From NCBI RefSeq assembly GCF_001076885.1, contig NZ_JVDT01000226.1:1-51205 (forward strand): a stretch of DNA of 51,205 nt, given 5' to 3'. The notes below the pieces were generated by a model. That model saw nothing but the letters and a program-made list of their open reading frames with translations. It made no database searches and had not been told where the DNA came from. The stretch is from Bacillus sp. 522_BSPC. GTDB lineage: Bacteria > Bacillota > Bacilli > Bacillales > Cytobacillaceae. The position numbers and the translations under genes are program-made. Below, piece after piece: positions 27,087 through 47,389 of this stretch (positions are counted from its first letter, which is position 1; every line of letters starts with the position of its first letter).

Positions 27087-28796
27087 ATGAGTTTTCGGAT
27101 GACGAGAAATCAATATGCAGATATGTTTGGCCCAACAGTTGGAGACGCTATTCGCTTAGCAGATACAGAACTTTTTTTAGAGATAGAAAAAGACTACACG
27201 ATATACGGAGATGAAGTAAAGTTTGGTGGGGGAAAAGTAATACGTGACGGGATGGGACAGCACCCGCTGGCTACACGGAAGGATACGGTTGACCTTGTCC
27301 TAACAAATGCCATTATTCTTGATTACACAGGAATATATAAGGCGGATATTGGCGTAAAAGATGGGAAAATTACAGCAATCGGAAAAGCTGGAAATCCTTT
27401 GTTGATGGATAGTGTCAATATAGTGATTGGAGCTGCTACAGAAGTAATTGCCGCAGAAGGAAAGATAGTTACGGCTGGTGGGATTGATGCACATATCCAT
27501 TTTATCTGTCCTCAACAAATAGAAACGGCCCTTAGTTCAGGAGTTACTACAATGATTGGTGGAGGTACTGGTCCTGCAACAGGAACGAATGCAACGACAT
27601 GTACACCGGGAGCTTGGAATATTCATCGTATGCTTGAGGCAGCAGAAGCCTTTCCGATGAATTTAGGGTTTCTTGGAAAAGGAAATGCATCAAGTGAAGA
27701 CGCGTTGGCAGAGCAAATTGAAGCAGGAGCGATAGGCTTGAAGCTGCATGAGGATTGGGGGACTACAACTGCAGCTATTGATACAAGTTTAAAAGTTGCG
27801 GATAAATATGATGTGCAGGTAGCGATACATACAGATACTTTAAATGAAGGCGGCTTTGTTGAAGATACCATTGCTGCCATTGATGGACGAGTAATCCATA
27901 CTTATCATACAGAAGGCGCAGGTGGGGGCCACGCACCAGACATTATAAAGGCAGCTAGTTATTCTAATATTTTGCCATCTTCTACAAATCCAACAAGACC
28001 TTATACGATAAATACACTGGAAGAGCATTTAGATATGCTGATGGTTTGTCATCACTTAGATCCATCCGTTCCGGAAGATATTGCATTTGCTGATTCTCGT
28101 ATTCGCAAAGAAACCATTGCAGCAGAAGATATTCTTCATGACTTAGGCATCTTCAGCATGATTTCATCAGACTCTCAAGCTATGGGAAGGATAGGGGAAG
28201 TAATTACTAGAACATGGCAAACAGCGGATAAGATGAAAAAGCAAAGAGGGAAACTGGAGGAAGACAAGGGAGTTGGCGACAACTTTCGTCTAAAGCGATA
28301 TGTATCAAAATATACGATTAATCCAGCAATTGTTCATGGAATTTCTGATTATGTTGGATCCATTGAAGTAGGAAAATTAGCTGATTTAGTTGTATGGGAT
28401 CCTGCTTTCTTCGGAGTGAAACCGGATCTTATTTTAAAAGGAGGATTAATTGCTCATAGCATAATGGGGGATCCTAATGCTAGTATTCCCACACCACAGC
28501 CTGTTTTTTATCGGCCGATGTTTGCAAGTTTCGGTCGTGCAAAATATCAAACCTCGATGACATTTGTTTCAAAAGCAGCCTATGAAAAAGGAATTCATCA
28601 AGCGCTTAATTTGCAAAAAATAGTTAAGCCTGTTGCTGGAATAAGAAAATTAAAAAAAGCAGATATGCTTTTTAACGGAGAGACGCCAACCATTGAAGTT
28701 GATCCGCAAACCTATGAAGTAAAGGTGGATGGAAAGCTTGCGACATGCGAGCCAGCAAAGACGCTGCCAATGGCACAGCGATATTTTTTATTTTGA
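27087..28796 (+). CDS. ureC: urease subunit alpha (catalytic)
   Basis: The 569-aa catalytic subunit. The nickel centre is complete: H136 and H138 (AHIH), carbamylated K219 (GLKLHEDWG, with H221), H247 in AIHTD, H273 in TYHTEG and the later metal Asp in SSDSQAMGR. The mobile flap holds C320 and H321 ([13 protein letters not shown]). Length and motifs are standard, so the enzyme should be active once nickel is inserted by UreEFGD. An AAAGGAGG site precedes the ATG at 27087. Confidence 0.97.
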
Positions 28797-37069: not shown

Positions 37070-37810
37070 GTGATATTACATACTTCTATTCAAGGAAAAG
37101 GAGAACCGATTGTATTTCTTCATACTGGTTTGCAAACAGGGTTAACAGATTTTGAGTATCAAAGAGCTTTTTTTCAAAGGCATTATCAGGTGATTTCTCC
37201 TGATTTAAGAGGGCATGGTCATTCTGTAGTTGCCAATTTTTCTAATTTCTTTGATGAATCTGCTAATGATTTGTTTGAAACGTTGGAACATGTAGGAATA
37301 GACTCTGCTCATATTGTAGGAGGATCAATAGGAGCATTGGTAGCCATCATTTTTGCAAAAAAGCATCCTAAAAAAGTAAAGAGTTTAACTATCTCGGGGG
37401 TTATGCCCTTAAAGCCTGATAATTGGGAAGAGTTACATCTTAAAGACATAGAGCAACAAAGTCACCTTTTGCAAAAGGAAGAGGTAGCTGATTATTTCAA
37501 CCAAATTCATAGAGGGGATTGGAGAGAAGCCCTTTTAATAACACAAGATTCAACGTGGTATCCATTTCATGAAATTAAGGATATACATGCATTAAAGATG
37601 CCGATTCTTTGCATAGTAGGCGAAGGAAAAAGAGACGAGATAGAGGGCGCTTGCTATTATCAAGAAATAAATTCGAATATGCACATTGCAGTTGTTCCTT
37701 TTGCGGCACATTTAGTTCAGGATGAACAGCCGGAGATTTATACTAAAATGTTAGATTCTTTTCTGATGAAATATGGCGATGCAAACATAAAAATGGGTGA
37801 GGAAAGTTAA
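37070..37810 (+). CDS. alpha/beta hydrolase
   Basis: A 246-aa cytosolic hydrolase. HTGLQTG forms the oxyanion region (HG-like), VISPDLRGHGHS the conserved post-beta4 stretch, and nucleophile S86 lies in GGSIGA. H214 (FAAHLVQDEQP) is the catalytic His and D189 the likely acid (VGEGKRDE). It is similar in layout to proline iminopeptidase, haloperoxidase and lactonase types, but the substrate is not evident. The GTG at 37070 follows AAGGAGAGGG. Confidence 0.82.
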   Translation: MILHTSIQGKGEPIVFLHTGLQTGLTDFEYQRAFFQRHYQVISPDLRGHGHSVVANFSNFFDESANDLFETLEHVGIDSAHIVGGSIGALVAIIFAKKHPKKVKSLTISGVMPLKPDNWEELHLKDIEQQSHLLQKEEVADYFNQIHRGDWREALLITQDSTWYPFHEIKDIHALKMPILCIVGEGKRDEIEGACYYQEINSNMHIAVVPFAAHLVQDEQPEIYTKMLDSFLMKYGDANIKMGEES

Positions 37811-37843
37811 CCACTTATTAAAAAGTAAAGTGGGTCTTGTTTT
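37811..37843 (+). terminator. terminator after the hydrolase gene
   Basis: CCACTT (37811-37816) pairs with AAGTGG (37828-37833), followed by GTCTTGTTTTA. It is moderate. A TATAAT at 37843-37848 directly after may be the -10 for the leader transcript, but no -35 is clear. Confidence 0.5.
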
Positions 37844-37890
37844 ATAATTTCCAATATGTTAAAGTATTTGGAAAATAAGAGGTGATTGAA

Positions 37891-37947
37891 ATGGTTAAAC
37901 GTACGCACAGCATCAACCTTTCACAATTACATCATCATAAAAAGTAG
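37891..37947 (+). CDS. histidine-rich leader peptide of a predicted attenuator
   Basis: An 18-codon frame with a near-ideal Shine-Dalgarno sequence (AGAGGTGAT at 37879-37887). It encodes MVKRTHSINLSQLHHHKK. Four of 18 residues are His, three in a row (codons 37930-37938). Its last codons overlap the left arm of a hairpin (37942-37990), and an intrinsic terminator follows at 37997-38045, ahead of a HisRS-like gene. This is the arrangement of his or trp attenuators, in which a ribosome stalled at scarce-amino-acid codons alters RNA folding. The peptide itself probably has no other function. Confidence 0.72.
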   Translation: MVKRTHSINLSQLHHHKK

Positions 37948-37990
37948 TCTTGCTATTTCGATTTAAAAATCGTACATAGGAAGACTATTT
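37942..37990 (+). promoter_or_regulatory. first attenuator hairpin
   Basis: AAGTAGTCTT (37942-37951) pairs with AAGACTATTT (37981-37990) with one G-U, and inside it CGATT/AATCG (37959-37972) forms a further stem. The left arm includes the leader's stop codon, so a ribosome stalled at the His codons would block it. Segment 37960-37966 (GATTTAA) can instead pair with 38025-38031 (TTAAATC), which lies in the right arm of the terminator. That pairing is a candidate antiterminator. Confidence 0.55.
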
Positions 37991-37996
37991 CTCATG

Positions 37997-38045
37997 AAAC
38001 CGCATTTGATTAAGTTTTAACTACTTAAATCAAGGGCGGTTTTTT
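37997..38045 (+). terminator. attenuator terminator upstream of the HisRS-like gene
   Basis: AAACCGC (37997-38003) pairs with GCGGTTT (38036-38042), extended by TTGATT/AATCAA and AAGT/ACTT, followed by TTTTTATTTTATTTT. It lies between the leader peptide and the coding region, so the gene is reached only by read-through. Confidence 0.85.
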
Positions 38046-38074
38046 ATTTTATTTTAAACAGGGGGCATGAAAAA

Positions 38075-39352
38075 ATGAAGAAGATGATTTACCAAAATGT
38101 TAAAGGAACAATGGATTATTTACCGAGAGAGGAAGAAATCAGAAGAAATATTCGGAGAACAATGGAAGATGTATTTATTCAGTATGGCTGCAAACCGCTT
38201 GAGACACCTATCTTAAATTACCAAGAATTGCTTGCTTCTAAATACGCAGGTGGAGCGGAAATTTTAGAAGAAATGTACACTCTTTCTGATCGTGGCAAAA
38301 GGGAGCTGGCGTTGCGCTATGATTTAACCATTCCCTTTGCGAAAGTGGTAGCGATGAATCCAACGCTAAAAATGCCTTTTAAACGCTATGAGATTGGCAA
38401 AGTATTTCGAGATGGTCCGATAAAGACGGGGAGATATCGAGAGTTTACACAATGTGATGTCGATATTGTAGGTGTTCCATCGCAAATGGCAGAAGCAGAG
38501 CTTATGATGATGGCTTTGAATATTTTTGATAAATTAAAGATGGAAGTAACGATTCAATACAATAATCGAAAATTATTAGTTGGGTTTCTTCGTCAATTGA
38601 ATATTGCGGATCAATTGATAAATCGGGTGATTTTGATAGTAGATAAAATAGAAAAAATTAGTAAAGAAAAAATAAAGGAAGAACTAAGAGATGCTGGATT
38701 AGAACAAACAGTAATAGAGGAGATTGATGCTTTTTTACAAAAGGATTTAATCGGCATAATAGAGTACTATCAACAGCTGGCAGAAAAAGAAGAGAGCATT
38801 AGAAAGGGGCTGGAAGAATGGAATGAATTACAATCGTATATAAAGAAGTTTGGACTGGAGCAATATTGCGTATTCAATCCGTTTCTTGCGAGAGGTCTTG
38901 AAATTTATACTGGAACAATCTATGAAATTTTCTTAACTGATAAGAGAATAAAGTCGAGCATAGGTAGCGGCGGAAGATATGACAATGCGATAGGCGGATT
39001 AATTGGCTCAAAGCAAACCTATGCAACAGTGGGTATTTCCTTTGGGTTGGATGTTATATTATCTGCTCTTTTATTAGATAAAATAGATTTTGATGATGCA
39101 AAGCTGGATTACTATATTATTCCGATTGGTCGACCGCTGGAAGCTTTTTTAGTTGCGAAAACACTTCGTGACAAAGGCTTTAAAGTAGAGCTCGAGTTAG
39201 GAAAGAAAAAACTGGTGAAAGCTTTAGATAAAGCAAATAAAGAAGGTGTCAAAAAGGTGATTATACTAGGAGACGAGGAAGTGGCAGGCAATATGTATAA
39301 AGTGAGAGATATGAAAACAGGAGAAGAATGGATAGTGAATTTCGAATATTAA
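38075..39352 (+). CDS. hisS: histidyl-tRNA synthetase, probably a second copy
   Basis: A 425-aa class II aminoacyl-tRNA synthetase that charges tRNA-His. Motif 1 region follows GTMDYLP; motif 2 is FKRYEIGKVFRDGPIKTGRYREF; the histidine-specific loop is ARGLEIYTGTIYE with the catalytic Arg; SIGSGGRYD and the motif 3 segment GISFGLDVILSAL follow. The C-terminal anticodon-binding domain (about 330-425) is present, so it looks active rather than HisZ-like. Sequence differs from the usual Bacillus HisS (for example RGLEIYT rather than RGLDYYT), and there is no aspS next to it. A main copy elsewhere is therefore likely. A predicted His attenuator precedes it; GGGGG lies 9 bp before the ATG. Confidence 0.88.
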   Translation: MKKMIYQNVKGTMDYLPREEEIRRNIRRTMEDVFIQYGCKPLETPILNYQELLASKYAGGAEILEEMYTLSDRGKRELALRYDLTIPFAKVVAMNPTLKMPFKRYEIGKVFRDGPIKTGRYREFTQCDVDIVGVPSQMAEAELMMMALNIFDKLKMEVTIQYNNRKLLVGFLRQLNIADQLINRVILIVDKIEKISKEKIKEELRDAGLEQTVIEEIDAFLQKDLIGIIEYYQQLAEKEESIRKGLEEWNELQSYIKKFGLEQYCVFNPFLARGLEIYTGTIYEIFLTDKRIKSSIGSGGRYDNAIGGLIGSKQTYATVGISFGLDVILSALLLDKIDFDDAKLDYYIIPIGRPLEAFLVAKTLRDKGFKVELELGKKKLVKALDKANKEGVKKVIILGDEEVAGNMYKVRDMKTGEEWIVNFEY

Positions 39353-39363
39353 TCATTAGACGA

Positions 39364-39396
39364 GGCAGTAGATGGGAGACATTTACTGCTTTTATT
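39364..39396 (+). terminator. terminator after hisS-like gene
   Basis: GCAGTAGATG (39365-39374) pairs with CATTTACTGC (39380-39389, one G-U), followed by TTTTATTTATG. Confidence 0.8.
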
Positions 39397-39440
39397 TATG
39401 TGAGAGTTGATTCAAAGGATATTAGCAAGTTAAAAAAATA

Positions 39441-39591
39441 GTCTCTAAGCCCGAATGGAAGGAAAAACGAGCAGGAAGGTAACAGAGAATCCGTCTCTGA
39501 TCCCGAGCGGAAGAAAAAAGGAGCGCGGAGGTAACAAACCCGTCTCTAAGCTCGAATGGAAGAAAAAAGAAGCGCGAAGGTAACAGAGTGG
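39441..39591 (+). repeat. three tandem ~50-bp direct repeats
   Basis: Units lie at 39441-39492, 39493-39541 and 39542-39591. Each begins GTCTCTAAGC or GTCTCTGATC, then C(C/T)CGA(A/G)(T/C)GGAAG, an A run, a (G/A)AGC(G/A)(C/G)G-type core and ends (A/G)AGGTAACA(G/A)A. They differ at scattered positions, so the array is not brand new. A partial relative occurs at 23779-23805. They do not encode a convincing protein on either strand. Confidence 0.75.
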
Positions 39592-47307: not shown

Positions 47308-47336
47308 TAAAAACGAAATACCCGTACTGAGACGGG

Positions 47337-47374
47337 AGAGGTTCATAGCGAATACCCTCTATAAAAAACTATGG
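47337..47374 (+). ncRNA. preQ1-I riboswitch aptamer
   Basis: The layout AGAGGTTC, a ten-base loop, CCCTCT, then ATAAAAAACTA matches the preQ1 class I aptamer known from the B. subtilis queCDEF leader. P1 is AGAGG / CCTCT and the A-rich tail docks in its minor groove; CTA of the tail can form the pseudoknot with the loop. It senses 7-aminomethyl-7-deazaguanine, the product of QueF. Ligand binding should favour the terminator downstream and switch queF off. Confidence 0.92.
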
Positions 47375-47389
47375 ATACATGCAATCAAC

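Follow-up and report, generated by a model that had tools for sequence, protein, structure and literature searches.

A leader with cognate codons predicted to attenuate transcription of a back-up histidyl-tRNA synthetase gene in Bacillaceae, and its glutamine counterpart

The second histidyl-tRNA synthetase gene (hisS*) of Bacillus sp. 522_BSPC is, judging from comparative sequence analysis, very probably controlled by ribosome-mediated transcription attenuation in response to tRNA charging. We are slightly more confident still of the sensing step, in which a ribosome at the codons of a His run in a short leader ORF would act as the sensor of tRNA-His charging. The leader and its relatives combine the features by which an attenuator is recognized, namely a leader ORF with a Shine-Dalgarno (SD) sequence, a run of cognate codons, a change of these codons together with the gene downstream, and an intrinsic terminator. 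When charged tRNA-His is plentiful, the ribosome would reach the stop codon, open a first hairpin (hairpin 1) and leave, and the terminator would end transcription. When charged tRNA-His is short, the ribosome would come to a halt on the run codons, its leading edge reaching the base of hairpin 1, and transcription would continue into hisS*.

The window, that is, the whole stretch of DNA analyzed here (51,205 nucleotides), comes from a 5.1-Mb genome that also holds a canonical hisS and a hisZ-like gene. The original prediction, made from the letters of the window, had described an 18-codon leader with a good SD and four His codons, three of them consecutive, a hairpin on its stop codon and a strong intrinsic terminator before a HisRS gene, and all of these elements were recovered (Table 1). 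The region 37870-38060 folds at -49.3 kcal/mol, compared with a shuffle mean of -26.6 (sd 3.9; z -5.9; 0 of 200 shuffles as good), and the fold consists of the hairpin at the leader stop codon and the terminator hairpin with a T run behind it. The terminator was missing from the output of a simple terminator scanner. In 20 of the 24 rows shown, the best promoter found by script ends 23-27 nt 5' of the leader ATG, so that little RNA would lie upstream of the leader; for the window, L011, L105 and L114 the script picked another pair.

Table 1. Features of the leader locus in the window and the grounds for assigning them
Feature	Position	Strand	Remarks
Likely promoter	37837..37865	+	TTGTTT 37837-37842, 17 nt, TG-extended TAAAGT 37860-37865; by eye, positional match to L005
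Shine-Dalgarno of leader ORF	37878..37886	+	AGAGGTGAT; AGAGGTGA-like in most relatives
Leader ORF MVKRTHSINLSQLHHHKK	37891..37947	+	ATG at 37891, stop TAG 37945-37947; His-run leader in 47/47 order-level carriers
Sensor codons CAT CAT CAT (CATCATCAT), predicted	37930..37938	+	Gln codons instead before GlnRS
Hairpin 1	37942..37990	+	Leader stop codon in base; conserved G.G mismatch; fold and covariation
Linker from hairpin 1 core to terminator, 10 nt	37988..37997	+	Overlaps outermost extension of hairpin 1; 8-10 nt in 64/64 leaders
Intrinsic terminator with T run	37998..38045	+	Fold and covariation
hisS*, second histidyl-tRNA synthetase, 425 aa	38075..39352	+	NF009085 match
Terminator-like hairpin 3' of hisS*	39362..39392	+	Weak: one found vs shuffle mean 1.1

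The product of hisS* is predicted to be a back-up histidyl-tRNA synthetase. In line with the second HisRS that had been suspected, the ORF matches histidine--tRNA ligase models with 599.8 bits (NF009085; cut-off 540) and 345.2 bits (TIGR00442; also above cut-off), and its alignment keeps the invariant HisRS columns, among them the ARGLEIYTGT and GGRYD regions. The protein is 82% identical to one from Niallia circulans, 44% to a Woesearchaeota row and 24-26% to canonical rows. In a tree of 51 proteins it stands apart from canonical bacterial hisS, on a 44-row side without canonical rows (support 100/98) and within a 39-row group that includes DPANN/archaeal and other rows (support 100/98). Structure chains named cytoplasmic HisRS (E about 1e-52) outranked 1kmm and 1htt (E about 4e-28), which we take to be the E. 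coli HisRS structures. A canonical hisS accompanies hisS* in the four carriers checked (N. circulans, Clostridium polyendosporum, a Sporomusaceae and UBA6806). By contrast, hisS* was the only HisRS found in L037 and L044, whose genomes may be incomplete. Two further copies of hisS*, both with a His-run leader, lie on plasmids of Lysinibacillus fusiformis and Planococcus versutus (L383, L384).

The His run is conserved in all hisS* carriers of the order, as the original prediction would have it. NF009085 was found in 47 of 299 genomes, and a His-run leader precedes hisS* in every one of these carriers (30/30 loci L085-L114, 16/16 loci L115-L130, and the window), with HHH in 44 and HH in L085, L086 and L092. 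Order-level hisS* loci were scanned over 800 nt, within which a short ORF preceded by an SD and terminating in HH was present in 30 of the 30 loci L085-L114; in 29 of these it lies no farther than 500 nt from hisS*. Control loci were scanned over 500 nt, and such an ORF was found before GlnRS genes in 1 of 30 cases, before hisZ in 0 of 30 loci (101 genomes matched hisZ) and before the mostly archaeal HisRS relatives L045-L084 in 1 of the 38 scanned, a single match that is taken as chance; two of these 40 loci were left out because their sequence begins too close to the gene. The hisZ of the window's own genome likewise has no His leader before it. The leader mostly starts about 170-210 nt before hisS*, and farther away in L087, L105, L111, L117, L120 and L085 (up to 757 nt). 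In L012 and L085 a long extra stretch, perhaps a mobile insertion, separates the terminator from hisS*.

Named Bacillaceae-type loci (L005-L034), which overlap the order-level loci in species, carry the leader in 29 of 30 cases, four of them with HH only; the locus without it, L007, is a second hisS* copy on its contig. His runs also occur in 7 of 10 loci from other Bacillota (L035-L044; Clostridium, Sporomusaceae, MAGs), with none in L039, L041 and L042. A search of the phylum matched 23 of 398 genomes, the window's included, and His-rich leaders were found in 4 of the other 22: HHH in L136 and L154 and the non-adjacent HFH in L138 by script, and HYYH in L135 by eye. Across 64 leaders, a set without L117, which the pattern missed, the 182 run codons are CAT in 169 cases and CAC in 13.

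The strongest indication that the codons themselves matter came from a model of the His leaders (R1), which matched 38 of 249 genomes, four of them without NF009085. In two of the four hisS* is lost or decayed, and the other two (L219, L220) carry leaders ending in ...LQLQQQN and ...TIQQQQ, which precede a 23S-rRNA-methyltransferase-like gene and then a glutaminyl-tRNA synthetase (GlnRS) gene. A joint model of the His and Gln leaders (R2) gave 19 matches in the family of these two genomes (35 genomes), of which 10 were His leaders of hisS* (HHH, one with HH) and the other 9 carried Gln codons and preceded the methyltransferase gene. The latter (L219, L220, L254-L257, L273-L275) come from all eight genomes of one genus and from one genome of another; three or four Gln residues are adjacent in five of them, and the Gln ORF of G130 was read by eye. 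GlnRS adjoins the methyltransferase gene in six of the nine genomes (six inspected). Hairpin and terminator covary across the His and Gln forms, with 45 both-side changes as opposed to 11.1 in shuffles (0/500).

Extended to all 299 genomes, where the stricter filters used above 40 genomes apply, R2 matched 56: 46 at hisS* (every order-level carrier except G205), six at the Gln operon, two at the lost or decayed hisS* loci, and two weakly, with neither leader nor synthetase seen. Among these 56 matched genomes, under the same filters, no third amino acid was seen. Of the two loci without an intact hisS*, L218 (G150:C25:11200-15500) retains the leader before a decayed gene with several stops. 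L217 (G051:C1:759700-764000) retains an HH leader and its next gene encodes a HAD-type hydrolase; it seems that hisS* was lost there or that the leader has a new target.

The methyltransferase gene has no upstream Gln run in 21 loci of other genera of the 35-genome family, nor does the methyltransferase-GlnRS pair of G297. GlnRS is present in 115 of the 299 genomes of the order; no Gln run was seen in 30 GlnRS upstream regions of 1500 nt each, and 4 of 20 longer GlnRS upstream stretches, all from the genus with the eight Gln-leader genomes, contain Gln leaders. The window's genome (G000) has two GlnRS genes (C224:3821-5392 and C124:41385-42959), neither of which shows a Gln-run leader, with an incidental QQ in one ORF only.

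Because the run matches the enzyme encoded downstream, His before hisS* and Gln before GlnRS, the state sensed by the leader is very probably tRNA charging. The simplest reading of these sequences would be that copying of a single module from one synthetase gene to another was accompanied by a matching change of codons. Such a natural change from His to Gln is unusually clean and strong comparative evidence of codon sensing; together with the unbroken conservation of the His run and the lack of a T-box, it supports the codon-specific, ribosome-mediated attenuation of a second HisRS that had been proposed. Four observations count against such an attenuator: four of the nine Gln leaders have QxQxQ in place of a run, four of the nine no longer have a stop codon in the hairpin base, three hisS* carriers have HH only, and L007 is leaderless.

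We then considered how stalling could prevent termination in the compact form of the leader found in Bacillaceae. The compact set leaves out the duplicates L093, L099 and L107, the distant forms, L085 and L110. Over 48 leaders, 85.8% of the cells of hairpin 1 and the terminator are standard pairs, and both-side changes number 82, compared with 25.5 in shuffles (0/500). Leaders with TAA in place of TAG as stop codon show a matching change in the partner strand of hairpin 1. In the duplex test, which covered 52 leaders, each leader's own arms paired better than swapped arms both for hairpin 1 (-20.1 vs -17.0) and for the terminator (-21.0 vs -17.5), with 0/2000 permutations in each case; L022, L089 and L095 were dropped from the 52-leader tests because the script had cut their terminators short. 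A G.G mismatch in hairpin 1 (window 37950-37985) is kept in 46 of 48 rows, is replaced by G-C in two, and recurs in several Gln forms.

The geometry is equally regular. The distance from the first run codon to the base of hairpin 1 downstream is 12, 13 or 15 nt in 62 of 64 leaders, the remaining two having been misread by the script, and hairpin 1 is separated from the terminator by 8-10 nt in 64 of 64, while its own length ranges from 39 to 51. From the run to the terminator, the unpaired path in 62 leaders is 20-25 nt with hairpin 1 folded and 64-73 nt along the strand; the path and G.G analyses leave out L011 and L130, in which the script took a later single His. Given a ribosome footprint of 15-16 nt, the value in the part of PMC6851288 used here, a ribosome whose A site is occupied by the first run codon would have its edge about where hairpin 1 begins.

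These distances suggest that in the compact form the folded hairpin 1 would shorten the tether, leaving the stalled ribosome 20-25 unpaired nt from the terminator, and that the tethered ribosome would hinder the terminator. We favor this mechanism, tentatively, because the spacings are fixed, no antiterminator is supported, and the limit in E. coli is about 27 nt. According to the cited portion of PMC4824070, a terminator in E. coli is repressed by a ribosome at a distance of up to about 27 nt, and 10-15 free nt may permit full folding; we count against the tether that its 20-25 nt fall between these limits. In its favor, stalling of a ribosome on the B. subtilis tlrB leader blocks termination (PMC6851288, in the part cited). 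It speaks against the tether that RNA polymerase is said to run ahead of the ribosome in B. subtilis and perhaps in Firmicutes generally (PMC10953045, in the section cited). It is conceivable, though still short of probable, that the compact form is an attenuator without any antiterminator RNA, its specificity set by the run codons alone and re-targeted naturally from His to Gln. Should it work in this way, a few codons would suffice to define the amino acid to which this simpler type of attenuator responds.

The compact form could instead follow the classical scheme of the E. coli his and trp operons, where stalling frees an RNA segment that draws one terminator arm into a mutually exclusive antiterminator; this would alter its mechanism and leave the sensing unchanged. 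The original prediction had assigned this role to a pairing of 37960-37966 with 38025-38031. The two segments are indeed complementary in the window, but the pairing is not conserved: it is formed in 55.2% of cells, as in shuffles (278/500 reach this value), and its strands pair no better within species than between species. Of the two alternative folds whose covariation had been anticipated, that of hairpin 1 and terminator was thus borne out and that of the antiterminator was not. Two further partners for the terminator 5' arm fared no better in the compact form, the 3' arm of hairpin 1 being unsupported in the duplex test and in a second test, and the linker pairing more weakly than shuffled sequence. 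In masked folds of 52 leaders, mean pairing of the terminator 5' arm was 0.28-0.31 in the stalled state and 0.41 with the ribosome at the stop codon, so that capture of the arm upon stalling is not favored in these folds, and the mutually exclusive antiterminator that marks his and trp attenuators was not found in the compact form.

The distant leaders speak more in favor of a classical arrangement. Eleven of them were folded singly without the terminator 3' arm, as single sequences with no covariation, and the terminator arm picked by script was more paired in the stalled state than at the stop in nine (by 0.05 to 0.31). L110, L040, L035 and L138 look like textbook alternative structures in these models, and the compact leader probably descends from a kindred form. 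The difference is reversed in L136 and L037, where the arm is less paired upon stalling; in these two, the hairpin chosen by the script may be the wrong one. On balance, we regard a classical mechanism as unlikely for the compact form.

Hairpin 1 might alternatively be mainly a polymerase pause hairpin at which the ribosome catches up, so that read-through would be set by pausing or its release and not by distance. Pause sites usually lie about 10 nt past a hairpin, a spacing that the linker of 8-10 nt with its conserved sequence would fit. A precedent is found in B. subtilis tlrB, where a NusG-dependent pause synchronizes polymerase and ribosome (PMC6851288, in the part cited). The base after the presumed pause varies, however, between G and T, and pausing alone gives no reason for stalling to block termination, which makes this explanation a doubtful one.

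It is very improbable that the leader acts as an arrest peptide, with its sequence rather than codon supply deciding the outcome, for example through a drug sensed in the ribosome. SQLHHH is kept beyond the His codons in many leaders, as one would expect of such a peptide; yet before GlnRS the run turns to Gln and the flanking residues differ, and the match with the synthetase downstream would stay unexplained. T-boxes are the usual control of Bacillus aminoacyl-tRNA synthetases, and one (128.7 bits) stands at L003, the canonical hisS locus of the window's genome, but T-box control of hisS* can practically be discarded, since a T-box covariance model applied to 37800-38200 gave no hit with E up to 10, in agreement with the original prediction, and an Rfam search of the loci of 18 relatives gave nothing at gathering score.

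Ribosome-mediated attenuation of a spare synthetase has a counterpart in the auxiliary TrpRS of Streptomyces coelicolor, which is under such control; by description, that system resembles hisS* in placing a spare synthetase behind a cognate-codon leader and differs in enzyme, phylum and RNA. With the enteric his and trp attenuators, the leader shares a cognate codon run near its end, a stop codon set against hairpins and an intrinsic terminator, whereas the enteric systems, in the accounts drawn on in part here, use alternative hairpins, of which the compact form shows none. The tlrB (yxjB) leader of B. subtilis is likewise a Bacillus leader peptide at which a stalled ribosome prevents termination; as far as the cited part of PMC6851288 goes, it differs in that it senses tylosin via an RYR arrest motif, in that the ribosome directly covers the terminator region, and in an added translation switch.

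The system had been thought perhaps undescribed. However, Naville and Gautheret had predicted in 2010 that in bacilli hisS* and hisZ are each preceded by a leader peptide with His codons (PMC2965389), and the core idea of a His leader before hisS* was therefore already known. The relevant section of that paper agrees with our results in the short ORF with a His stretch, the premature terminator, the hisS paralogue and the T-box on canonical hisS. If its genes correspond to ours, two differences emerge from that section: it reports a leader at hisZ as well, whereas we found none in 30 of 30 hisZ loci, and it calls hisS* a recent duplicate specific to bacilli, whereas our tree places NF009085 apart from canonical hisS. 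We reject a recent Bacillus duplication for the gene studied here because canonical Bacillus hisS is not its closest relative in the 51-row tree; the gene of that paper may differ from NF009085. The same section contains neither the Gln version nor a test of the antiterminator, both of which are presented here. In the open-licence literature we found no report of the Gln version and no experimental study of this His leader; a glnS leader in Shewanella is named there, in the passages available without such a leader peptide.

Since transcription is said to outrun translation (PMC10953045, in the section cited), a conserved codon-specific leader in Bacillaceae offers a test of when the ribosome keeps up. 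The leader also aids the annotation of spare synthetases.

Three minor observations concern other parts of the window. Between hisS* and a tyrosine-recombinase-like gene, imperfect direct repeats (GAATGGAAGGAAAAA...AAGGTAACAGAG) were noted by eye at 39440-39590. An Rfam match to 5_ureB_sRNA at 27243-27527 (- strand; 102.8 bits) probably reflects a conserved urease coding stretch and not an RNA gene. A PreQ1 riboswitch match at 47332-47378 (+ strand) scored 40.7 bits, barely over the cut-off.
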